Shown in pieces: positions 13,529 through 26,137 of a DNA stretch of 64,000 bases. Source of the DNA: Thiogranum sp. (lineage in GTDB: Bacteria > Pseudomonadota > Gammaproteobacteria > DSM-19610); contig JASBSS010000036.1 of assembly GCA_030148805.1 (NCBI GenBank), forward strand, positions 62,001 through 126,000, in the 5' to 3' direction. Under the pieces are notes generated by a model. The model did no database searches. It was not told the DNA's origin and worked only from the letters and a program-made list of their open reading frames with translations. The position numbers and the translations under genes were made by a program. Every line of letters begins with the position of its first letter. Position 1 is the first letter of the stretch.

Positions 13529-14638
13529 TTAGCGCATAGCGCGATCGGACTTGGCGCGCTTGGCGTACGCCGGCGACAACGTATCCAACTTGCCCGCGTC
13601 CTGACTGGCGACGTAGGCGATACCGGTCATCGGATCATAGGTCACCCCCGCCGGCCCCGCGGGGACGTCGACGTGCTGGAACACCCGGCCGTTGCGCGTA
13701 TCGACAAACGCCACCTGGTCGGCGTCGCCAATGGCGGCGAACACGACGCGGCGGGCTTCGTCGGCATGGATACCCAGCGGCCGCGGCCCGATGGCGGCGC
13801 GCCAGAGCACCCGCTGATCGCGCACGGCGACCATCTCCCCGCTGCCGCCGATGGTGGCGTACACGGTGCCGCTGACGCCGATGGACGGATTCCAGGGGCC
13901 TTCGCCGACCTCGACCACCGCGCTGACCTGCAAGGTGTCGGCGTCGATCAGATGCAAGGTATTGGCACCGGTATCGGTGGTCACGATCAGGTTCCCCTTG
14001 GCATCGACGCCCCAGGGACCGGCACCGACGGGGATGACCGCCAGCTGGTTATGGGGCGGCGACAGCTGATAGACCTCCAACTGGCCGGCGTCGATGCTGG
14101 TGACATAAAGGCGGTCGCGCCGCGGATCGAGCTTCAGACCGTGCGGGTTGGGTCCCACGGGGAAGGTGGCGAGGGTCTGCCCGGTCTCCAGGTCCATTTC
14201 CGAGACCGAGGATTCCCCTTTGTTGACCACATAGGCCCGCCGCGCGGCGGGATCGACCTGGACGGTGTGGGGGGCGGCGCCGACAGCGAAGGTGCGCACG
14301 ATCCCCTGCCCGGGATCCACCTCGCTGACGGTGGACTCGCTGACGTTGCTGACCAGGACGTTACCGGTGACCGCATCATAAGCGGGAAAATGCGATTTCG
14401 GCCCCGCTGGGGTGACATCGCTCAATACAAACTGGCGTGCCGCCGGCTGCCGGTCGTTCTGCGGCTGCGCCTGGGCCGTCCCTCCCAGGGCCAGCGACGC
14501 CAGCAACAGGCCGCGCAAGGCGTCCCCGGTACGTTGCCATGACCAATCAGTTAAACGCCTTCTGTACGGGTTGTCTGTCGGAATGCATTCCCCGTGATGG
14601 GGGGCGAATGAATGAGCGGGCGGGGAAGTGTTTGGCAT
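13529..14638 (-). CDS. YncE-like beta-propeller protein, exported
   Basis: This 369-residue protein is a seven-bladed propeller of the YVTN/YncE type. Repeated blade motifs are evident: VNKGESSVSEMDLETGQTLA, LYVTSIDAGQLEVYQLS, NTLHLIDADTLQVSAVVEVG and IAYVASQDAGKLDTL. A hydrophobic signal core ends in AQA about residue 57 after an unusually long charged leader. The ATG at 14638 has GGAG 11 nt upstream and is preferred despite that leader. It lies downstream of a diheme oxidoreductase on the same strand, separated by 332 bp, and has its own terminator. Such propellers often accompany periplasmic redox enzymes; substrate unknown. Confidence 0.78.
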   Translation of the reverse strand: MPNTSPPAHSFAPHHGECIPTDNPYRRRLTDWSWQRTGDALRGLLLASLALGGTAQAQPQNDRQPAARQFVLSDVTPAGPKSHFPAYDAVTGNVLVSNVSESTVSEVDPGQGIVRTFAVGAAPHTVQVDPAARRAYVVNKGESSVSEMDLETGQTLATFPVGPNPHGLKLDPRRDRLYVTSIDAGQLEVYQLSPPHNQLAVIPVGAGPWGVDAKGNLIVTTDTGANTLHLIDADTLQVSAVVEVGEGPWNPSIGVSGTVYATIGGSGEMVAVRDQRVLWRAAIGPRPLGIHADEARRVVFAAIGDADQVAFVDTRNGRVFQHVDVPAGPAGVTYDPMTGIAYVASQDAGKLDTLSPAYAKRAKSDRAMR

Positions 14639-14970
14639 AGGCTGATACTCCTTAATGTGAGGCGTCCGTTTACAACGCTAGAACTTGGCGCCAAATCGCG
14701 CCTGCCCAATAAAACAAGCCAGCCAGTGTGATTCAACCGTCGCATGAAGATCCACTGAAAAATGCGTCACCCACCGATGCCGCTTTCAGGGATCTCCTAC
14801 AAAAGTAAGCGTGTCATCCGATTGCGCTCGCCCGCCGAGTATCAGATGTCAGCAACGCGCAAAGGGCTTTGCGCAAGCATCGAGGTAGGACGCCCGCTTA
14901 AATCAGCTCGGCGCCAGCCGCGTCCCTGCGACTGTAGCGCCGACCCACGAATGGCTACCCTCGCCGGTGG
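14639..14970. other. 332-bp intergenic region, no gene seen
   Basis: This lies between the stop of the diheme oxidoreductase and the start of the YncE-like gene. Frames here have atypical codon use and no ribosome binding site. It should hold the promoter of the YncE-like gene, but I see no convincing -35/-10 pair or operator. Confidence 0.4.
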
Positions 14971-16563
14971 CTATTCGAGATCCGTGGGATCGTTGAACAA
15001 CACCGGCAGCCGGATACTGCCATGTCCATACTGCGGGAAACCGTCGGTGGATGGATCGCCGGGATTGAGGTTGGACGCCGTGTCATCCGGCGGAAACAGG
15101 ACCAGCGACCGCAAATAGGCGATGATCGCCGCGCGCCCCGATGGGCGCAGCGCCAGGTAATTGCGCTGCGCCGCCTGCGCCTCGCCGCCGTGACGCACGA
15201 TGACTTCGTGCAGATTGATACTGCGTCCGTCGTGTCCGTAAGGCGCCGTCGACCCCACACCCCATAGCGGCTCGGTCATGAACTGCTTGTGCAGCGTGCC
15301 GTCGAAATTGCGTTCCCAGAACGCCGGACCCAGATCGTGGCGCTTGAAATCCGCGTAGATCCCCCGCACCAGGAAAGGCTCCGCCAGCGGTTGTTTGAGC
15401 GTCGGATAGCCGCTGCCGTCGTCGACTTGCGCAAACAGCGGCGTGGCGACGGCAAACAGGTTGTTGAAGGTTCCTCGGTCTGGATCGTAAGCGACCTCGA
15501 CGTTGGCGACCCTGCGATCGCGGGCGAGCGGCAGATCCGGAACGTGGCACGAGGTGCAGCCAATCCTCTCCAGCAACAGCTGGCCGCGCAACTCCTGCCG
15601 GTTTTGCTCATAGGTGGCCGGCGAAAAATAATTGAGCAGATAGAATTCCAGATGATCGACGAGCGCGACCGGTATTTCGTCATAGACACCGTCGCCGTCG
15701 CCATCCTCGGCAACGCTGTGCACCGGCGGTGCCTCGATACGATCGCTGCCGCCGCTCAGCCGCATGCCCGCCGGGGTGATCACATCGGCGCCTCCGCTGG
15801 CCGCCGCCAGGTCGGGGTCGGGCGATTCCAACCCCATTTCGGCGTTGAACGCCCCCACGACGAACTCGCGGATCGAAATCGTGCTGCCCTCGGCGAAGAA
15901 GGGTCGCACCCGCAAATCGGCGTCGACGCCCTCCACCGCCCGGGTGTCCAGGCTGCCATCCGGGTGGGCCACCAGGCTGCCGTAAGCCACACCCTTGCTG
16001 GCCAAGGCCTGCGTCACCGGGGCCGCTTGCTGACGCGCCTGCTGCAGGGCGTCGTCCCGCTGCTGGCGCAGCTCCTGGGTGATTTCGTCAGCCAGCATCT
16101 CCACCAGACCGAGACCGAACAGATGCGGCGCGTCGCGACCGTCGGGGCGGGTGAAGACATCGCCACCAAAACCGGCCGAACCCCGTGGCCGTCCGTGGCA
16201 GGCGGCGCAACTGTCGGTCAGGCCCGCGCCAAGGGAAGCGTCGGCGCTGATGTCGCCGACGCCATCGCCGGTGCGCGGCCCGAGTCCCTCGGCCAGGCGG
16301 AACTTGCGTTGGAACAGCTGCCGGCCGCGGCGGATGGAACGAAACGGATCCCGCTTGATGACGTACAGCGAAGAACGTGCGGTATAGACGTCCCCCCGCC
16401 CCATCCCGATCTGATCGATCAACGACTTCTGGATGCCGGCGTTCTCGTTATTGGGGGTCTGGGTGACGTCGTTCAGACCGGCGTGCAGCGCCGGCGGTGC
16501 GAACACACCGGCACCTGCCAGCAACAGACTGCGGCCCAAGCGGCCGCGGGTGGAATAGGTCAT
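14971..16563 (-). CDS. periplasmic diheme oxidoreductase (DHOR/di-haem peroxidase-like)
   Basis: A 530-residue secreted c-type diheme protein. The signal peptide (RSLLLAGAGVFAPPALHA) is followed by a first heme motif CAACH at Cys119-His123 and a second, CTSCH, in the C-terminal half. Between them are segments typical of the di-haem oxidoreductase family (PF06537), for example FLVRGIYADFKRHDLG and LWGVGSTAPYGHDGRS toward the C-terminus. The family is related to MauG/cytochrome c peroxidases, but most members lack assigned substrates. The ATG at 16563 has a perfect AGGAGGT 7 nt upstream. It is divergent from the LuxR-type gene at 16902, which may control it. Confidence 0.85.
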   Translation of the reverse strand: MTYSTRGRLGRSLLLAGAGVFAPPALHAGLNDVTQTPNNENAGIQKSLIDQIGMGRGDVYTARSSLYVIKRDPFRSIRRGRQLFQRKFRLAEGLGPRTGDGVGDISADASLGAGLTDSCAACHGRPRGSAGFGGDVFTRPDGRDAPHLFGLGLVEMLADEITQELRQQRDDALQQARQQAAPVTQALASKGVAYGSLVAHPDGSLDTRAVEGVDADLRVRPFFAEGSTISIREFVVGAFNAEMGLESPDPDLAAASGGADVITPAGMRLSGGSDRIEAPPVHSVAEDGDGDGVYDEIPVALVDHLEFYLLNYFSPATYEQNRQELRGQLLLERIGCTSCHVPDLPLARDRRVANVEVAYDPDRGTFNNLFAVATPLFAQVDDGSGYPTLKQPLAEPFLVRGIYADFKRHDLGPAFWERNFDGTLHKQFMTEPLWGVGSTAPYGHDGRSINLHEVIVRHGGEAQAAQRNYLALRPSGRAAIIAYLRSLVLFPPDDTASNLNPGDPSTDGFPQYGHGSIRLPVLFNDPTDLE

Positions 16564-16901
16564 GTGGTACCTCCTGCCATTTTTTATCTCTGGAGACCTC
16601 CCGGATGAAGGTCGAAACCCTACAAATTGCAGGCCCACCTTAACCTTGCGCGGGTCCCGAAACAGCTGGGCCGGAGGTTAGTTTTTTGTTAAATCTTCAG
16701 TGACATAGCTGGTCATCGGTCTGACCCTCGGGGCGTTCGCGCCGGCGCGCACTAGACGAACGTCCAACGCGATCCAGCCGCCGCCCGCGCCGCCCTAGCC
16801 GCAAGTCCAATGCAGGCGCGGCACAAACTTGCTAGATTCTGTCTATAAGCGACTAAAAGCGCACAACTAGAGGCGACGTTGACTGACGCAGGAGGGCTGG
16901 T
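16564..16901. other. 338-bp divergent intergenic region
   Basis: It separates the diheme oxidoreductase (leftward) from a LuxR-type regulator (rightward) and should hold both promoters. I see AT-rich stretches at 16679-16700 and 16845-16870 but no clear consensus promoter or inverted repeat. No coding sequence is supported. Confidence 0.4.
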
Positions 16902-17672
16902 GTGTCAAAAAATACACTACAGAAACTTTTTATACTTTCGCGGCAGGATATCACCATAGAGGGCATTCGCCATGTACTGGAACGCGAGTGCGAATGCACC
17001 ATTGTCACTTGCGTGGAGCCCGGCGACTCCTGCCTGGAGCGCTTTCGCAATACCCGACCCGATCTGTTGTTCCTGCACCAGGCGGCGCTGGATTTCTATC
17101 CCTTTGACATCATCGGCCGCTTGCGTGAGCAGCAGAAGGATCTGCCCGTCCTGCTGTTCGGTCGCGGCCTGTCGGAGGACCGCCTGTTGGGCTATCTACG
17201 CGAGGGCAGGATCCAGGGCTATCTGAACGAACAGATGCGCTCGGACGATTGGGTGCAGGCGGTTGGCGAAGTCACCGCGGGCCGCTTGTGGCTCGACCGG
17301 AGCTTGATGGACCGGCTGGTACGCGACGCCCTGGCGCTGGAACAGATGATCAATGGCGTCATCGAGGACCGCCTGCACGAGCTCAAAGTCGCCCTCACGC
17401 CGCGCGAAGTGGAAATCCTGCAACTGGTGCTCGAAGGCCTGGCCACGCGCGAGATCGCCGATCGGATCTGCCTGTCGGAACAGAGCGTGAAACTGCACCT
17501 GAGTCGACTGTTCAAGAAACTTGACGTCAACAACCGTTCGCAGATGATTCTGGCGGTGTTTCAGCAGATCTGCCCGGTATCCAACGTCATTCGCCTGATC
17601 CACAACTTCCTCGACAAGCGGCGCATTGCGCAGGGCAAGCCCCCCTTGATACCGGACCCCCTGAGCGGTTGA
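16902..17672 (+). CDS. LuxR-family regulator with degenerate receiver domain
   Basis: The 256-residue protein has an N-terminal receiver-like domain (about 1-125) and a C-terminal LuxR/GerE helix-turn-helix starting at LTPREVEILQLVLEGLATRE and running through SEQSVKLHLSRLFKKLDVNN. The position that normally holds the phosphorylated Asp is His59 (RPDLLFLHQ), so it is a pseudo-receiver unlikely to be controlled by a sensor kinase in the standard way. The start is GTG after AGGAGGG. It is divergent from the diheme oxidoreductase. Architecture resembles CsgD- and NarL-like regulators. Target genes are inferred to be the surrounding secreted redox genes. Confidence 0.88.
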   Translation: MSKNTLQKLFILSRQDITIEGIRHVLERECECTIVTCVEPGDSCLERFRNTRPDLLFLHQAALDFYPFDIIGRLREQQKDLPVLLFGRGLSEDRLLGYLREGRIQGYLNEQMRSDDWVQAVGEVTAGRLWLDRSLMDRLVRDALALEQMINGVIEDRLHELKVALTPREVEILQLVLEGLATREIADRICLSEQSVKLHLSRLFKKLDVNNRSQMILAVFQQICPVSNVIRLIHNFLDKRRIAQGKPPLIPDPLSG

Positions 17673-17778: not shown

Positions 17779-20700
17779 CTAGTCGTCGTCTTTCTCCTTT
17801 TTGCTTTTCTGTTTCCCGCCGACGATCTCCTCCAGCGGCATGGCGGACACCCATCCCCAGGAATTGCCGATATAGAGGGTCTTGCCGGCAACGAGGGGAT
17901 TGTTGTAGGTGAACGATCCGCCTACCCGCTTCCAATTGAGAATCGTGCCGTCCTCGGCGTCAAAGGTATACAGATCCGGCCCGACGGGCTGAATCAGCTT
18001 GTCCTTGACCACCACGCCCGGCCCCCAACTCATGCGCCCGGCCTCGGCCGTCACCGGGGTTTGCCAGCGGAGGGAGCCATCTTCGGTATCCAGCGCGTTA
18101 ACTGTGTTGTCCAACGGGTTGGCGAAGTAGCACACTTGGTCGTTGACCACCGGCGTGGGCGCGACGAACCCCAGCGGGAATTCGCCGCTGCCAAGAACGC
18201 GCGTCCATACCACGGCACCGCTGGAACCGTCGAGGCCATAGGTGAGAATGGTCGCGGTATTGGCCACCGGATCGGCGTCGATCAGCACGCTGCCAATGAC
18301 CAGGTTCTCTTCAACATCGACCGCCGGCGAAACGGCGGCGAAACCGGTCGAGGCGATGTTGAATCCGGCCAGCGGCTGCGTCCAGACGATCTGGGCGGTC
18401 TCCAGGTTAATGGCCGTGATCTGGCTGGGCCTGGCGGTACCGACCACCATCAGGTCGGGCGCATTCCCCTGACCACGGACGATATTGGCCGAGGAAATGG
18501 CGTTGAAGCCGAGCTTCAGCACCGGCTTGCCGTTGGCGTCCATGAACGGCGCCTGCGGTGCTCCGGTGTCCGCGTCCACCGCGAACACCCGCCCCTGGCC
18601 GTTCACCCAGAAGACGTCGCCCTGGTGATACAGCGGCGTCATTCCGCTGGTTCCGGGGCCGGTATAGAACGTCCAGCGCTCCGTACCGTTGCGCGGATCC
18701 AATCCGGTCAGGTGCTGCAGGCTGGCGCCCAAGGTGAAGGGATCGCCGCGGCTGAAGTCACCGGTGCCGCCCAGGTTGGTCCACTGATCGCCACCGCCGA
18801 CAATCACCGTGTTGGGTGTCACCAGCGGCTGACCGAAGTTGGCGTTGAAGGTCCGGTAGCGCCAGATCTCCCGTCCGCTGCGGGCATTCAACGCATGAAT
18901 CGTGAAGCGATCGCTACCGGCGTAGATCGCGCCCTTGGCCGCGGCCAGACCGCTGCCGACGCCGAATGCCAGATGGGTCATCATGGTGGCTTCCTCGGTG
19001 CCGTAGATGTCTTCATCCATCGGTGGTGCGGTCAGCGGCAAGGCATCGGTCAGTGGCGTCTGCCAGCGGCTCGCCTTGGGTCCCTTGGGCGAGACGGCGT
19101 TGTTGTCCGGCCCACCGGCATAGAACAGCCAGGTTGCCGGGAAGGCGCCGCTTTCCGAGCGAGAGGGCGAGGCGCCGGGATTGAACTGCGCCCGTTGCGG
19201 CGGTGGTGTCACTTCCGGCGGCAACCCATCGGTGTAGCCGGGGGTGGTGGTGACAAACTCCACCGGCGCGGCGAACACCCAGCCCGAGATCGAGCTCAGA
19301 TACATCTGATCGCCGACCACCACCGGCTGCGTGACGCCGAACAACGCAAACAAGCCGACGGTGGTGAAGTCGTTGAGGATCTCCCCCGTGGCCGCGTCGA
19401 AGGTCCGTATGTGCCGCCCGGCCGCCTGGATTACCTTGCCGTCGACATACACCGCCGCGCCACGGGCGCGTTCCGCACCGGGCTCATCCGGGTTGCTGAT
19501 ATCGGTGACCCACAACACCGCCCCGGTCTGGGCGTCGAGCGCCTGGAAGGTCTGATTGATGGTATTGCCGGCGTACATGACGTTGTCGTGAATCATCGGC
19601 ACGCTGGCCTTGAAGCCGGGCGGGTTGTCCCCCTCCCCCATCAGCGTGTTCCACACCAACGAGCCGGTAGCCGCGTCGATGGCCATGGCCTGCAGATTGT
19701 TGGTACCGCCAATTTCGCTGAACACCGTGGTGAACACCCGACCCAGCGCCGGGTCCACGGCCACCGGCGTGTCGCCCGGGGAATTGGCCGTCGCGTTGGG
19801 CGGCGTGAACTCCCAGGCCACGGTGGGATTGGCCGGATTGGTGACGTCCATGGCGAGAATGCGCCGCGGACGGATGGTTCCGTAGATCACCAGCTTGCGA
19901 CCCGTTGAGGTCTCGTACCAGTTCGGCGAGGCCAGGCCGGCGAAGCCATTGCCCGGATTCTTGGTGAAACCCTGTTGCGCACCGCTGGCGGCATCGAGCA
20001 CGAAAAATTCGCCGGCGCCAGTGGTCACGTAGAGCTTGTTGTTGTCGAAAATCGCCGCCGGCCGGGCGGCGTTGCGGGTGGAGAAGCGCCACATCTCGGC
20101 CCCGGTCACCCCATCGAGCGCGACCACCGCGCCGAAACTGGCGCCGCGATCGTGCTCCAGTCCGTTGGCGAAGCGGATGGTGTTCTGGATATTGAACGCC
20201 GCGTCGCCGACCGTGATGAACACTACCGGCCGGCCGCCGACCTCGCGCACCACGGTCTGTCCCATGCCGGCGACGTTGACCAGGTTGTGGCGCCAGATCA
20301 CGCGTCCGGTACGCGCGTCGATGGCGTCCACCTCGTGACGCCCGAGTTGCGCATAGACAATGCCCTTGGCCACCGACACGCCCATGACCTCGCCCAGGAA
20401 CTGGCTGGTACGCGACGCCCAGCCCTCCGGGTTACCGAAGGTTTCCGAGGCTCGCGCGGCACGCAGAAAATCCAGCCCCGTCAAGGGTGCCGCCCAGAAG
20501 ACTCCACGGTTGGGGAAGCGGTTCGGGTCTCCGGTTGAGGGGAACACCGGATTGTGCCGTTGGTCAAAGCCGTACTGCGGCCAGGCACTGGGGAATGCAG
20601 CAGCATGACTGGAATACGTCTCGGCCGGACCGTTGCGCGCTTCCAACACGCCGTTGGATGGCGGCATGCAGTTGAACATTTCGGCCGACTGCAGCACCTG

Positions 20701-20814
20701 GGTCGTGCAAGTGGGCAAATTGGCGCCAGGCTTGGCGTGCGCGCCCAGCGCCAGCAGTAGTGTCAGCCCCGTCAGTGCGCTCGCGCACCTGCGGGCAAAC
20801 CTGTTGTGCTTCAT
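17779..20814 (-). CDS. large secreted PQQ-type (quinoprotein-like) double beta-propeller
   Basis: A 1011-residue exported protein with a clear signal peptide (ALTGLTLLLALGAHA, cleavage about residue 27). The body is two propeller domains of about 450 residues, each built from PQQ-type blades with Gly/Trp motifs: GAEMWRFSTRN, GSLVWNTLMGEG and AVLWVTDI in the first, GREIWRYRTF, GTERWTFYTGP, QIVWTQPLAG, AVVWTRVLG and GSLRWQTPV in the second. A Pro-rich linker (near ~540-560) separates them. There is no heme motif and no obvious adjacent Cys pair of alcohol dehydrogenases, so PQQ binding is uncertain. The C-terminus is a charged Lys/Asp tail. It sits 69 bp downstream of the metallophosphatase and may be cotranscribed. 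Confidence 0.78.
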   Translation of the reverse strand: MKHNRFARRCASALTGLTLLLALGAHAKPGANLPTCTTQVLQSAEMFNCMPPSNGVLEARNGPAETYSSHAAAFPSAWPQYGFDQRHNPVFPSTGDPNRFPNRGVFWAAPLTGLDFLRAARASETFGNPEGWASRTSQFLGEVMGVSVAKGIVYAQLGRHEVDAIDARTGRVIWRHNLVNVAGMGQTVVREVGGRPVVFITVGDAAFNIQNTIRFANGLEHDRGASFGAVVALDGVTGAEMWRFSTRNAARPAAIFDNNKLYVTTGAGEFFVLDAASGAQQGFTKNPGNGFAGLASPNWYETSTGRKLVIYGTIRPRRILAMDVTNPANPTVAWEFTPPNATANSPGDTPVAVDPALGRVFTTVFSEIGGTNNLQAMAIDAATGSLVWNTLMGEGDNPPGFKASVPMIHDNVMYAGNTINQTFQALDAQTGAVLWVTDISNPDEPGAERARGAAVYVDGKVIQAAGRHIRTFDAATGEILNDFTTVGLFALFGVTQPVVVGDQMYLSSISGWVFAAPVEFVTTTPGYTDGLPPEVTPPPQRAQFNPGASPSRSESGAFPATWLFYAGGPDNNAVSPKGPKASRWQTPLTDALPLTAPPMDEDIYGTEEATMMTHLAFGVGSGLAAAKGAIYAGSDRFTIHALNARSGREIWRYRTFNANFGQPLVTPNTVIVGGGDQWTNLGGTGDFSRGDPFTLGASLQHLTGLDPRNGTERWTFYTGPGTSGMTPLYHQGDVFWVNGQGRVFAVDADTGAPQAPFMDANGKPVLKLGFNAISSANIVRGQGNAPDLMVVGTARPSQITAINLETAQIVWTQPLAGFNIASTGFAAVSPAVDVEENLVIGSVLIDADPVANTATILTYGLDGSSGAVVWTRVLGSGEFPLGFVAPTPVVNDQVCYFANPLDNTVNALDTEDGSLRWQTPVTAEAGRMSWGPGVVVKDKLIQPVGPDLYTFDAEDGTILNWKRVGGSFTYNNPLVAGKTLYIGNSWGWVSAMPLEEIVGGKQKSKKEKDDD

Positions 20815-20883: not shown

Positions 20884-22743
20884 TCAATCGGGCGCCAACA
20901 CACCACGCAGCGGTTGAATTTCGGGGTTCTCGAACACCGGCGGCGGAAAGTTTCCGAGCAATTCCGTACGCCCCATCTGCGGGTTCACCGGACCGGAGGT
21001 CTGCAAGTAGTCGGCAACGACTTCAGTCGGGTCCTTGACCGAACCATCGGGGTTGGTGATCACCGACACATTCTGTGCGTCGCGGAACGCACCGATGCGG
21101 TTAGGCTCGAGATCGAAGAAATAACCGGTAATCGAGTAGGCCCGATTCGGGTCGAGCGGTTGTCCGTTGACCTCCACGTTGACGGCGCGATCGCCGAACG
21201 CCGCGTTGGGATCGACGTCATAGGTCACGCCACTGAAACCAAACAGCCAGCCGCCGCCCCAGTCGAAGGGATCGGAATCGAGCGAACCGCGGATGGTCGC
21301 CTCCAGCGCCGTCTTGATCTGCGAGCCCAGGATCTCACCGGTCGCCAGCTTGGCCCCGGCATTGAGGTAGGTGTACAGATCAGCCAGCGTGATCTCGCCA
21401 GGGCGCACGTAAGTCCCATAGCGAAAACCGCGGATGGTCCCGATCTCGGTCCCGCCCTGCTGGCGGAACGCGTCGGTGATCATCGCATGCGAGGTCCCTT
21501 CAAGCACTCCGGGAACCGCCGACGGAGGCGCGATACCGTTGGCGAAGTTGCCGCGGAACAGCTCGCGTCCGGCCAACCCGACCACTGTGTCGATCGGCGT
21601 ATCGAGGACGTGACCACTGATGGGATTGACGTGGGGACGGAACTGCGGACCGCTCAGGAAGGGGGCCCGCACCTGGGCGACCAGCGCCGCGGTCTCCGGG
21701 TCCTCCGGCTGATTTTCTATTGCGATATAGTCGTAGTCATGGCCGACGATCTCGAATTTGGCCCCACCTTTCTTGCGCGATTCCTTAACCGTACGCTTGA
21801 CGAACAGATCGAGCTTGGCCAGGCGCGAGCCACCCCAGCCGATCTCCGCGGCGAGCACTTTGTTGACCGGGGTTATCACCAACTCCGGTGTCTCCTCGTG
21901 CATGTCGGAACAGAGCACCACGTCGACGCCCGGAATACGGTCGACCAACAGGGTGTTCTTCGCCAGGCCGAGTTCGGAGAGCAACACGACAATGTCGACT
22001 TTTTCCTGGTTGCGAAGTATGTCTATCGACTCCTCCAGCTCAGCCTCGCCATCAGTGAACACCAGCCCGACGTTGGCCGTAGGCACCGCCGGCAGCCCCC
22101 TCTCGGCGGTCAGGCCGATAACGCCAATCTTGACGCCCTTGACGCGGTAGACCCGATGTGGCGGGAAAATCCGCTCGCCGGTGTCGGCGTCATAGGCGTT
22201 TGCCGCCATCACCCCCCAGCGCCCCGAGCCGAACAGCTCGACGGCGCGGTCCTTGCCATACAGCCAATCCCAGTTGCCCGGCGCGTAACCGTCGATCCCG
22301 AAGGTGTCGAGCACATCGACAATGGCCTGCCCGGAGGTGTACAGCACCTCGGCACTGCCCTGGAGCGTATCGCCCGCGTTGAACAGCAACGCGTGCGGAT
22401 TGCGTTTACGGATCTGTTTGATCACGTAGGCTTCGCGAGCGAGACCGGATTCCTGGAACTGGGCCGCGTCGCCGCGACGCAGATTCGGCCGCGGGACCAG
22501 AGTGCCGTGATGATCGCCGATCTCCATCAGGGTGATAAGCTTGGCGCCGCGAATCGGGGAACCAGCGTCGCTGTTGGCCCACGCCGGCGCGCAAACCGAA
22601 GTCAGAAAATGCACGCCCAGCAGGGAAATGAAACCGCGCCAGAGTCGACGGCGCAGAATTGTCCCCGGTGCTTGGCGCTGATCGCCCCCACTCACCGCTC
22701 GGCGGCAGGTGTCGGCAACAGGTTTATGCGGCTTATTGTTCAT
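20884..22743 (-). CDS. SoxB/5'-nucleotidase-like secreted metallophosphatase
   Basis: A 619-residue exported protein of the UshA/SoxB superfamily, with an N-terminal metallophosphoesterase domain and a C-terminal 5'-nucleotidase domain. Metal-site motifs are DHH at 77-79, AGDT with Asp125, GNWDW at 156-160 and CSDMH at 278-282. Canonical nucleotidases read GNHE and GHTH at the last two, so a catalytic His is Trp158 and a ligand His is Asp280. A basic RRRLWRGF leader before the hydrophobic core could be Tat-type. The ATG at 22743 has AGGAGG 8 nt upstream. The dimanganese fold is clear; whether it acts on nucleotides or a sulfur substrate is open. Confidence 0.78.
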   Translation of the reverse strand: MNNKPHKPVADTCRRAVSGGDQRQAPGTILRRRLWRGFISLLGVHFLTSVCAPAWANSDAGSPIRGAKLITLMEIGDHHGTLVPRPNLRRGDAAQFQESGLAREAYVIKQIRKRNPHALLFNAGDTLQGSAEVLYTSGQAIVDVLDTFGIDGYAPGNWDWLYGKDRAVELFGSGRWGVMAANAYDADTGERIFPPHRVYRVKGVKIGVIGLTAERGLPAVPTANVGLVFTDGEAELEESIDILRNQEKVDIVVLLSELGLAKNTLLVDRIPGVDVVLCSDMHEETPELVITPVNKVLAAEIGWGGSRLAKLDLFVKRTVKESRKKGGAKFEIVGHDYDYIAIENQPEDPETAALVAQVRAPFLSGPQFRPHVNPISGHVLDTPIDTVVGLAGRELFRGNFANGIAPPSAVPGVLEGTSHAMITDAFRQQGGTEIGTIRGFRYGTYVRPGEITLADLYTYLNAGAKLATGEILGSQIKTALEATIRGSLDSDPFDWGGGWLFGFSGVTYDVDPNAAFGDRAVNVEVNGQPLDPNRAYSITGYFFDLEPNRIGAFRDAQNVSVITNPDGSVKDPTEVVADYLQTSGPVNPQMGRTELLGNFPPPVFENPEIQPLRGVLAPD

Positions 22744-23094: not shown

Positions 23095-24093
23095 TCAGAC
23101 TTGATCGGTAAATTGGCAGGCGCCGAGCAAACCCAGTTCCGCGGCGCGATGGATGCATTGTCGCCGCGTCGACACGCTGAGCTTGTTACGGACCGCATCG
23201 AGGTGTTCCTCGACGGTTTTCACCGATGCCACCCCCAGCTCGCGCGCGATCTGCTTGTAGCTGCGGCCTTCGGCGAAGAGCGAGAGCACGCGTTTCTGCC
23301 GGTTGGTCAGCTTCACACTTTCGCTCAACGGCACCCTCGTCGGCACCGTGGGCACGCCCCAGCCCGCGCCGGCGCCGGCGAAACTGTCCTGACAGAAACG
23401 ACTCAGCTCCCTGGCGATGCAACGGACCAGGGCGATCTTCTCCCCCAGCCGTCCCTCGACATGGCTGAACAAAGCCACTCCGGCGCTACTGACGCCATCG
23501 CGCCCGTCCACCAGCGCCGCCACGGAATAGCATTGATGGAACAATGAACAGTAATGCTGATCGGCGCGCAACGCCGCGGGGCCGCGCTGCTGCAGGCTGA
23601 TGGACAAGGCCGTGGTGCCGCAGCTCTCCTCGGCCAGCGACACCCCCGGCTCCAGGCCGCAATGACGCGACGCACGCTCGCGCATCTGCGCGCTGGAATA
23701 CAGGCTGACGACGTGCCCGCTCAGCGAGGTCAGAACGAACAGGGTGTTCGGTGTCAGAATATTCTGATGCAGATCGCTGAACAGGATCTGGGCGTAGGAC
23801 GAAAGCCCCGCATGCGCCTGCATCGTCCGACGCAGTTCGTCGATCGGCAGGCGATCTTCGAGTCGCGGCTGCTCGGGGTCGACACCCAGGCGGTGGCAAC
23901 GCCGGTGCGAATCCTCGATCAGGACCTCGTTGCTGAGCAAATCCCGCTCGTGAACGCTCAGTACTTCCTGCGACTCTGATGAGAACGCGATTCCATTGGC
24001 TTCCAACATCCACTCCAAATCTCTGAATCGCCTGCGGACTGATTTTTCTTGCCGAAAGCGATGGGGGCAATTCTCATGGAGCCCACGCCCCAT
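23095..24093 (-). CDS. GAF-domain LuxR-family transcriptional regulator
   Basis: The 332-residue protein combines an N-terminal sensory region with a LuxR/GerE helix-turn-helix (LTNRQKRVLSLFAEGRSYKQ, then ASVKTVEEHLDAVRNKLSV). The sensory part resembles the AcoR-type GAF segment found in sigma-54 activators: SLAEESCGTTALSISLQQRG followed by YCSLFHQCYSVAALV. The fusion of such a GAF region to a LuxR domain is uncommon but known. Start is ATG 24093 with a weak GGGGAAA; an internal ATG at codon 28 is an alternative. It lies between tsdA and the metallophosphatase on the same strand and is a candidate regulator of either. Confidence 0.85.
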   Translation of the reverse strand: MGRGLHENCPHRFRQEKSVRRRFRDLEWMLEANGIAFSSESQEVLSVHERDLLSNEVLIEDSHRRCHRLGVDPEQPRLEDRLPIDELRRTMQAHAGLSSYAQILFSDLHQNILTPNTLFVLTSLSGHVVSLYSSAQMRERASRHCGLEPGVSLAEESCGTTALSISLQQRGPAALRADQHYCSLFHQCYSVAALVDGRDGVSSAGVALFSHVEGRLGEKIALVRCIARELSRFCQDSFAGAGAGWGVPTVPTRVPLSESVKLTNRQKRVLSLFAEGRSYKQIARELGVASVKTVEEHLDAVRNKLSVSTRRQCIHRAAELGLLGACQFTDQV

Positions 24094-24560: not shown

Positions 24561-25475
24561 TCACTGGGATGATTGACCCAGTACCGTTTTGCCCACTTTG
24601 TCGCCGTAGCGGCACTGGTGGTTGTGAAAGGCCTCCTTGGTCGCCTTGAGATCGCCCTCGAAACGCGGATCCTGCGGCCTTTCGTGACTATTGATGAAGT
24701 AGGCGACATCCCACGCCTGCTGCACGCTCAGGCTGCCGCCTTTGCCCAGCGGCATGTTGGCGCGGATGAACGCCGCCGCGGTATTGATCCGGTGCATGCC
24801 GGCGCCCCAGTTGAAAGCATGTTCGCCCCACAACGGCGGAAACACCTGTTCATCCCCCTGGCGCACCCCCTCGCCATCGGCGCCATGACAAAGCGCGCAG
24901 TTCTGCGCAAAGATTTTCGCCCCGCGCTCATAGTCGGGCTCCAGCTTCGGCTTGTCCAGCTTCGGATAACCCTGTCCGGGCAACTTGACCCCCGTGGGCG
25001 CACCCTCGGCCAGCCAATAGGCATAGCTCATCAGCGCCTTGATGGTTTCGCCGTCGGCCGGCGGCGGCGTGCCGTTCATGCTATAGCGGAAGCAGCCCTG
25101 GATCCGCTCCTGCATGGTGTTGACCATCTTGTTCTTCTTGCGATAGGCCGGGTAGCGGACCCACGCGGCCCACAGCGGCGCCGAGTGCGCCAGGCGCCCC
25201 GCATCGAGATGACAGTTCACGCACTTCTGGTCGTTGCCCACGTATTTGGCGGCATATTTGTCGGTGTGGGTAAAGATGTTCTTGCCCAGACGCACCATTT
25301 TACCGAACTCGTCGTCCGGTATCGTATCTTCTGAGGGGGGCTGAAAAGCCTTGACGGGAATCGGTGTGGTGACCGCCTGCGCGGCTTCGCCTGCCGGCTG
25401 CGCCGGCTCGGCGCGCGCGGCGTTGCCCGTGGCAAAAACGACGAGAGTGAACAGAAACAGAAAACGGATATCCAT
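24561..25475 (-). CDS. tsdA: thiosulfate dehydrogenase TsdA (diheme cytochrome c)
   Basis: A 304-residue secreted diheme cytochrome. The signal peptide (FLFLFTLVVFATGNAARA) precedes heme site 1 (KCVNCHLDAGR) and heme site 2 (NCALCHGADGEG). RIQGCFRYSMNG, 39 residues after the first heme His, supplies the cysteine that in TsdA enzymes is the unusual axial ligand of the catalytic heme. ANMPLGK after heme 2 offers the Lys/Met type ligands. TsdA couples two thiosulfates to tetrathionate in the periplasm. The ATG at 25475 has GGAG 8 nt upstream; another ATG at 25493 overlaps the upstream stop (TGATG) and would add six residues. It is translationally coupled to the cytochrome gene upstream. Confidence 0.85.
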   Translation of the reverse strand: MDIRFLFLFTLVVFATGNAARAEPAQPAGEAAQAVTTPIPVKAFQPPSEDTIPDDEFGKMVRLGKNIFTHTDKYAAKYVGNDQKCVNCHLDAGRLAHSAPLWAAWVRYPAYRKKNKMVNTMQERIQGCFRYSMNGTPPPADGETIKALMSYAYWLAEGAPTGVKLPGQGYPKLDKPKLEPDYERGAKIFAQNCALCHGADGEGVRQGDEQVFPPLWGEHAFNWGAGMHRINTAAAFIRANMPLGKGGSLSVQQAWDVAYFINSHERPQDPRFEGDLKATKEAFHNHQCRYGDKVGKTVLGQSSQ

Positions 25476-25492
25476 GATACGACTCCTTGCCA

Positions 25493-26137
25493 TCAGGGTG
25501 CTTTTGCCGGCGACAGGGTGGCCAGATAGCGGGAAACGGCGGCGATTTCGGATTCTTCCAGATGTCCGACCACCGACTGCATCAGGCCGATGGGGTCGTT
25601 GCTGCGCTCACCCTTGCGCCAGTGCTCCAATTGCTTCTTCAGATAGTCTTCCGACTGACCGCTGATCGCAGGAAAGTTCGGCGCCACGCCTTGACCCCGG
25701 TCGCCGTGGCACTGGAAACAGGCCGGCATGCCCACCGACCATTTGCCCTGGGTGGCCAACCGTTTTCCCACCGCGTCGGCGGTGCCCGCCTTCCCACCCG
25801 TCTTCGGCAAAGGCAATGCGGCGAAATACTCGGCCACGGCGTCCATCTCCTCGGCGGACAACGCGCTGGCGAACGGCTGCATGACAGGGCTCTTGCGCGT
25901 CTGGTCGGCGAAGGCCTTGAGCTGGTGGACCAGATAGGCCTTGGGTTGCCCGGCAAGGTAGGGATAGCCCGCGCCGGCATTGCCCTGGCCTTTATCGCCA
26001 TGGCAACTGATACAACCCGGCGCCCCCTTGCCGTTGCCTTGCTGGGCGATAGTCTTGCCAGATGGCGGCGCGGCCAGGGCGGACGCGGCATAGGCCACGG
26101 CGGCGCACGCCAGCGATACGCTGATTCGTATCTTCAT
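25493..26137 (-). CDS. tsdB: diheme cytochrome c4-like protein, probable TsdB
   Basis: The 214-residue exported protein has a signal peptide ending in ASALAA and two homologous class I cytochrome domains, with CISCHGDKGQG near residue 42 and CFQCHGDRGQG near 139. Each has a downstream Met (SPVMQPFA, GLMQSVVG) as likely sixth ligand. This is the cytochrome c4 architecture and also that of TsdB, the electron acceptor encoded beside TsdA in many thiosulfate oxidisers. The stop overlaps a tsdA start codon. The TsdB role rests on that adjacency; by sequence alone it could serve as a general c4 carrier to oxidases. Confidence 0.85.
   Translation of the reverse strand: MKIRISVSLACAAVAYAASALAAPPSGKTIAQQGNGKGAPGCISCHGDKGQGNAGAGYPYLAGQPKAYLVHQLKAFADQTRKSPVMQPFASALSAEEMDAVAEYFAALPLPKTGGKAGTADAVGKRLATQGKWSVGMPACFQCHGDRGQGVAPNFPAISGQSEDYLKKQLEHWRKGERSNDPIGLMQSVVGHLEESEIAAVSRYLATLSPAKAP

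Follow-up and report, generated by a model that had tools for sequence, protein, structure and literature searches.

The gene at 20884..22743 on the minus strand of the 64,000-nucleotide stretch of DNA analysed here (the window), from the sulfur-oxidising bacterium Thiogranum sp., encodes a metallohydrolase of the SoxB/UshA family, and it belongs to a clade with a fixed, unusual set of metal ligands that is apparently an undescribed branch of that family. Its closest characterised relative is SoxB, as judged from NCBIfam models, PDB sequences, Foldseek E-values and the identity in VIA rows. From sequence we infer its substrate, chemistry and metal, and propose with moderate confidence that it would act in the manner of SoxB, as an extracytoplasmic binuclear-metal thiosulfonate/polythionate hydrolase in the tetrathionate branch of thiosulfate oxidation. 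The genes around it point to the cleavage of S-S bonds that arise in the metabolism of tetrathionate. In the portions of the literature searched, neither a SoxB-like clade of this ligand set nor a hydrolase-DsrE fusion was recognised. The hydrolase gene lies among the following genes of the window:

16902..17672, plus strand: LuxR-family response regulator, facing the cluster
17779..20814, minus strand: tetrathionate-hydrolase-type double beta-propeller, 1011 aa, 69 bp downstream of the hydrolase gene and co-directional with it
20884..22743, minus strand: SoxB-like metallohydrolase, 619 aa (PF02872 80.3 bits, TIGR04486 184.6 bits)
23095..24093, minus strand: GAF-LuxR type regulator (GerE/LuxR, with a GAF-type N-terminus)
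24561..25493, minus strand: TsdA-type diheme cytochrome c (tsdA), with two CxxCH motifs and a Cys in IQGCFRYSMNG
25493..26137, minus strand: TsdB-like diheme cytochrome c, top model PdsA with 66.4 bits, below the cut-off of 330

The open reading frame, strand and coordinates of the hydrolase gene were checked and are correct. A hydrophobic N-terminal segment at about residues 31-56, read by eye, is a putative export signal. The Pfam match is to the 5'-nucleotidase C-domain (PF02872), and the top NCBIfam model is that of SoxB (TIGR04486), with 184.6 bits against an unreached cut-off of 550; the UshA model NF007109 likewise stays under its cut-off (67.2 versus 600 bits). Thermus SoxB (2wdc) is the top PDB sequence match. 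The protein is 28% identical to the true SoxB of the same genome over 459 columns and 27% identical to E. coli UshA (b0480) over 247. A plain SoxB is ruled out by the score, the ligands and the tree. The AlphaFold model, of middling quality (mean pLDDT 66.2, pTM 0.72), has the two-domain UshA/SoxB fold; Foldseek placed SoxB first (2wdc, E 3.8e-31), and among the VIA rows tied near a Z of 30 SoxB has the highest identity (27%). The fold is equally that of 5'-nucleotidases (VIA Z 30.6 with 2z1a, 30.0 with 2wdc). This would suit a phosphoesterase or nucleotidase of the periplasm with an unusual choice of metal, encoded near sulfur genes by chance, a reading that we hold to be rather unlikely in view of the residues and neighbours described below. 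As modelled, the fold shows membership of the superfamily rather than function, and makes no choice between SoxB and nucleotidase.

The active site was compared with that of UshA, in which we take His117 to be catalytic, Asp41, His43, Asp84, His217 and His252 to be metal ligands, Arg410 to bind phosphate and Phe429 to stack on the base. The corresponding codons, all on the minus strand, are:

22507..22515, minus strand: Asp77 and His79, site-1 ligands, aligned to UshA Asp41 and His43
22369..22371, minus strand: Asp125, bridging ligand, aligned to UshA Asp84
22270..22275, minus strand: Asn157 (a ligand position) and Trp158, the latter at the position of UshA catalytic His117
21973..21975, minus strand: Glu257, at the position of UshA metal-2 ligand His217
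21898..21906, minus strand: Asp280, Met281 and His282, with Asp280 at the position of UshA metal-2 ligand His252 and His282 belonging to site 1 (UshA Gln254)

Trp158 stands within APGNWDWLYG (the GNWD motif) and Asp280 within VLCSDMHEETPE (the SDMH motif), at the positions reported for this UshA/SoxB-fold protein by the initial annotation, which had missed a third change, Glu257 (in LLSELG) for the UshA metal ligand His217. The alignment to UshA thus leaves the site-1 ligands intact and replaces two site-2 histidines by Glu and Asp, so that site 2 comprises Asn, Glu and Asp in the hydrolase, as against His, His and His in SoxB and Asn, His and His in UshA. All seven ligand positions, as well as Trp at the catalytic-His position, are invariant in the 30 aligned clade members (30/30), and for this reason the motifs are neither chance nor a sequencing oddity. 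At positions 157, 158, 257 and 280 the SoxB rows read His, Trp, His and His (7/7). An aromatic residue in the first SoxB motif, as given by the initial annotation, is thus present in these rows, and since all seven true SoxB rows share the Trp, the term 'SoxB-like' is right for Trp158; it fails for Asn157, Glu257 and Asp280, all of them His in SoxB, and the set as a whole differs from that of SoxB.

The loss of two site-2 histidines could alter metal use or abolish catalysis. Their replacement by carboxylates, and the second, intact enzyme (SoxB) in the genome, would fit a paralogue of weak or absent catalytic activity whose role is to bind TetH, TsdA or a DsrE-like protein or to serve them as a scaffold. 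We consider this distinctly unlikely: the invariance of the ligand set makes decay improbable, and the replacements are all ligand-competent carboxylates, whereas decay would scatter. As regards a nucleotidase, a Sporosarcina protein with GNWD and otherwise normal ligands is annotated as such, and therefore Trp alone is no proof of sulfur chemistry. The UshA positions for phosphate and base are, however, not conserved: in a C-domain alignment of low identity, Gly443, Ala462 and Phe543 of the hydrolase align to UshA Arg410, Phe429 and Phe498, and across the clade Arg410 is replaced by Gly in 27/30 rows and Phe429 by Ala or Ile in 30/30. A nucleotidase role seems unlikely, since the hydrolase keeps neither the catalytic His of UshA nor, in the alignment, its Arg410 and Phe429.

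In a 62-row tree (IQ-TREE), all 30 rows of one clade, named clade SDMHE here, carry Asn-Trp, Glu257 and Asp280-x-His together. The clade has a support of 100/100 and SoxB (7 rows) is separate, also with 100/100. The target clade falls outside both SoxB and UshA. One row (L102; 347.3 bits, under the SoxB cut-off) groups with the Sporosarcina row and was left out of the SoxB figures, which refer to the seven rows. A sister set of 15 Glu-His rows adjoins the clade (support 97/79), with Glu at position 257 in 14 of the 15 (His in L046) and His at position 280 in 14 (Asp, together with Glu, in L043). Since position 257 requires one change on this unrooted tree and position 280 three, Glu257 appears to have come before Asp280 in the target line. 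The same dimetal site occurs naturally with no His replaced by a carboxylate, with Glu alone and with both Glu and Asp, and this series would be useful for studying metal choice.

Members of the clade include relatives of about 40% identity from other phyla; the hosts, all of them metagenome bins, are Gammaproteobacteria, Hydrogenophilales, Thiobacillaceae, Acidiferrobacterales, Campylobacterota and one bin labelled as an actinobacterium. A motif-checked member was present in 17 of 369 sampled gammaproteobacterial genomes. Wider sampling yielded little, with 7 of 20 genomes of the hydrolase's own order. No carrier beyond the own genome was found among 398 genomes of a phylum (1/398), nor any beyond the query genome among 149 genomes of the order of G373 (1/149). 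Plasmid records gave 244 matches, all below 60% identity (about 23-31% for 40 among the matches listed), and there was no clade member among the four whose motifs were read (L126-L129). One of these, a Pontibacter plasmid (L127:1390-4257), encodes a SoxB-like protein (Trp, His, Asp set) whose gene immediately precedes that of a TsdA-type cytochrome, with a rhodanese and a putative sulfate exporter close by. Within the clade, genes often occur in neighbouring pairs (L049, L050, L052, L011), the second copy being broken in some, and one member (L051:8519-10690) ends in a Cys-rich repeat domain of FGFR type (PF00839, 45.2 bits).

In the window, the GAF-LuxR gene (23095-24093) separates the hydrolase from tsdA (24561-25493) and the TsdB-like gene (25493-26137), all upstream on the minus strand, just as the initial annotation had described. 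The Cys of IQGCFRYSMNG is presumably the heme ligand of TsdA. On the other side, residues 69-521 of the 1011-aa propeller match Acidithiobacillus TetH (6l8a, 181.9 bits), and its N-half keeps the TetH catalytic Asp325 as Asp348, judged against 6l8a and against 7cqy, an entry that has another residue at this one aligned Asp and is presumably the Asp325 variant of TetH. The C-half is 31% identical to the N-half and is without the catalytic Asp. The double-propeller architecture is seen also in L011 (61% identity), and L018 has a single propeller. After the cluster, a YVTN-type beta-propeller with a di-haem oxidoreductase (DHOR) is encoded at 13529-16638 on the minus strand and is kept in L010.

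Altogether 32 clade loci were surveyed, among which L013 and L015 are near-copies and L009, L029, L057, L061 and L063 are short contigs. TsdA is nearby in 8/32, a TetH-like protein in 5/32, and an exported DsrE-like protein is adjacent, nearby or fused in 9/32; at least one of the three is found in 14/32, and none of them was found nearby in the remaining 18/32, several of which are on short contigs. One invariant Cys is common to all nine DsrE-like rows. The DsrE-like gene adjoins the hydrolase gene in L013, L015, L054, L055, L057 and L058. In L012 and L051 the distance is one or two genes, and in L056:3537-5699 a natural fusion places a DsrE domain at the C-terminus of the hydrolase (PF02635, 25.9 bits, cut-off 22.7). 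The order in the Sulfuricurvum-type loci L013/L015 is soxY, soxZ, soxB, dsrE-like, hydrolase; in the own genus there are two arrangements, that of the window and tsdA-sulP-dsrE-hydrolase-MMPL. In L054, L055 and L057 the hydrolase is followed by an MMPL transporter and by two more proteins (clusters c13 and c14). Among the 18 loci with none of the three, those inspected in more detail have signalling, NHL, aminotransferase or ferrochelatase genes (L014, L016, L049, L052, L053) or a rhodanese (L017) as neighbours. Within 3 kb, DsrE-like neighbours were observed in 8 of 24 genomes against 0.35 expected by chance; of these eight, one is the fusion, added to the within-3-kb count, and two are near and not adjoining. 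With the family picked after the fact, the excess is indicative only. No DsrE-like gene was found near the window locus, and there are 10 DsrE-like matches elsewhere in the same genome.

The recurrence of sulfur-gene neighbours across phyla argues against a chance location. Because the UshA catalytic His, Arg410 and Phe429 are gone and TsdA, TetH-like, DsrE-like and Sox neighbours recur, the substrate is probably a sulfur compound and not a nucleotide, in keeping with the direction of the initial annotation. The SoxY-thiosulfonate that it offered for assay appears less likely in this genome, since a true SoxB (887.6 bits, TIGR04486) is present together with soxX, soxY, soxZ and soxA; the SoxYZ/AX homologues in question are clustered with soxB at C6, about 144-148 kb, on the same contig as the window. 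On the whole the annotation is partly supported, its observation being right but incomplete and its interpretation wrong on the SoxB-like set. A true SoxB over the cut-off is found in 14/17 carriers and in 134/352 non-carriers of the gammaproteobacterial sample (Fisher p 3.5e-4, relatedness ignored) and in 6/8 further carriers, giving 20/25 overall. The SoxB of the genome of L016 is truncated, the genome of L017 has none, and no SoxB over the cut-off was found in the three carriers G136, G128 and G036. With SoxB as the nearest known family, and the hydrolase placed behind soxY-soxZ-soxB in L013/L015, a further SoxB isoenzyme working with SoxYZ might be envisaged; we give this little credence, as 20 of the 25 carriers already have a true SoxB, the clade is separate and fully supported, and the DsrE fusion points to another carrier. 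The 3.8 Mb genome itself (G000) contains ten UshA/SoxB-fold open reading frames (17 matches grouped by the author; C6, C14, C25, C27, C30, C38), namely three clade members, four Glu-His paralogues, two others and the true SoxB, which is an unusual paralogue expansion. Given the true SoxB and the TetH-like enzyme of this genome, the clade hydrolase could be redundant.

TsdA converts two thiosulfates into tetrathionate, and in the preferred reading, that of a thiosulfonate/polythionate hydrolase, this would be the first step. The TetH-like propeller, judged from homology and its kept Asp, may then convert tetrathionate into sulfate and disulfane monosulfonate; alternatively, tetrathionate may load a cysteine carrier as Cys-S-thiosulfonate. 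The clade enzyme would finally act on an S-thiosulfonate (R-S-SO3-, R-S-S-SO3- or disulfane monosulfonate), splitting off its terminal sulfonate as sulfate and presumably leaving persulfide sulfur for further oxidation. In those clade members in which a DsrE-like protein is adjacent, nearby or fused, this protein probably takes the place of SoxYZ as carrier. A more specific and only tentative version is a Sox-like cycle without SoxYZ, in which tetrathionate from TsdA would be taken up by an exported DsrE as Cys-S-thiosulfonate and a re-liganded SoxB relative would strip off sulfate to leave a persulfide carrier. According to the available text of the respective reports, Metallosphaera DsrE3A takes up tetrathionate as Cys-S-thiosulfonate, the sulfonate-releasing enzyme that follows DsrE3A/TusA is postulated and 'as yet unknown' (PMC4175335), and SoxB favours the thiosulfonate form of SoxY over the shorter S-sulfonate in binding (PMC5336275). 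If this cycle is real, the hydrolase would supply, outside the cytoplasm, the equivalent of that missing Metallosphaera step (PMC4175335). The further metabolism of tetrathionate by bacteria at neutral pH is poorly known, and a defined clade with fixed ligands, recurring TsdA, TetH-like and DsrE-like neighbours and one fusion offers a concrete and cheap hypothesis. The ligand motif would let annotators tell clade proteins apart from 'bifunctional metallophosphatase/5'-nucleotidase'.

Compared with known systems, the hydrolase shares with SoxB (TIGR04486; 2wdc) the two-domain fold, the Trp in place of the catalytic His, a C-domain GFR[YW]G motif, the extracytoplasmic location and the sulfur context, but differs in its site-2 residues Asn157, Glu257 and Asp280 (three His in SoxB), in forming a separate clade and in not standing with soxXYZA here. 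With UshA it shares the fold, the site-1 ligands Asp, His and Asp, and Asn at the site-2 Asn, whereas His117, His217 and His252 are changed to Trp, Glu and Asp and the Arg410 and Phe429 positions are not kept. TetH (6l8a) aligns with the N-half of the window neighbour, Asp included, but the neighbour has two propellers in tandem and lacks the Asp in the second. In the accessible part of the TetH literature (PMC10859504), Asp325 is essential, the products proposed for the Acidithiobacillus enzyme are sulfate and disulfane monosulfonate, and purification is stated, in a review, to have been from acidophiles only. The nearest parallel is in Erythrobacter flavus 21-3, whose genome is reported, in the text available, to be without a Sox complex (PMC7608252). 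Three SoxB-like genes of this bacterium (D0Y83_01365, 01405 and 01435), annotated as metallophosphatase/5'-nucleotidases, are clustered with tsdA; the second and third have typical SoxB metal-site ligands according to the authors, and were compared by description only (PMC7608252). In the same text, D0Y83_01365 is needed for conversion of tetrathionate into zero-valent sulfur and for normal tetrathionate consumption, and on loss of the SoxB-like gene tetrathionate rose and no zero-valent sulfur appeared in the medium (PMC7608252). By analogy, E. flavus 21-3 may serve as a genetic precedent for a SoxB-like protein beside tsdA that acts on tetrathionate.
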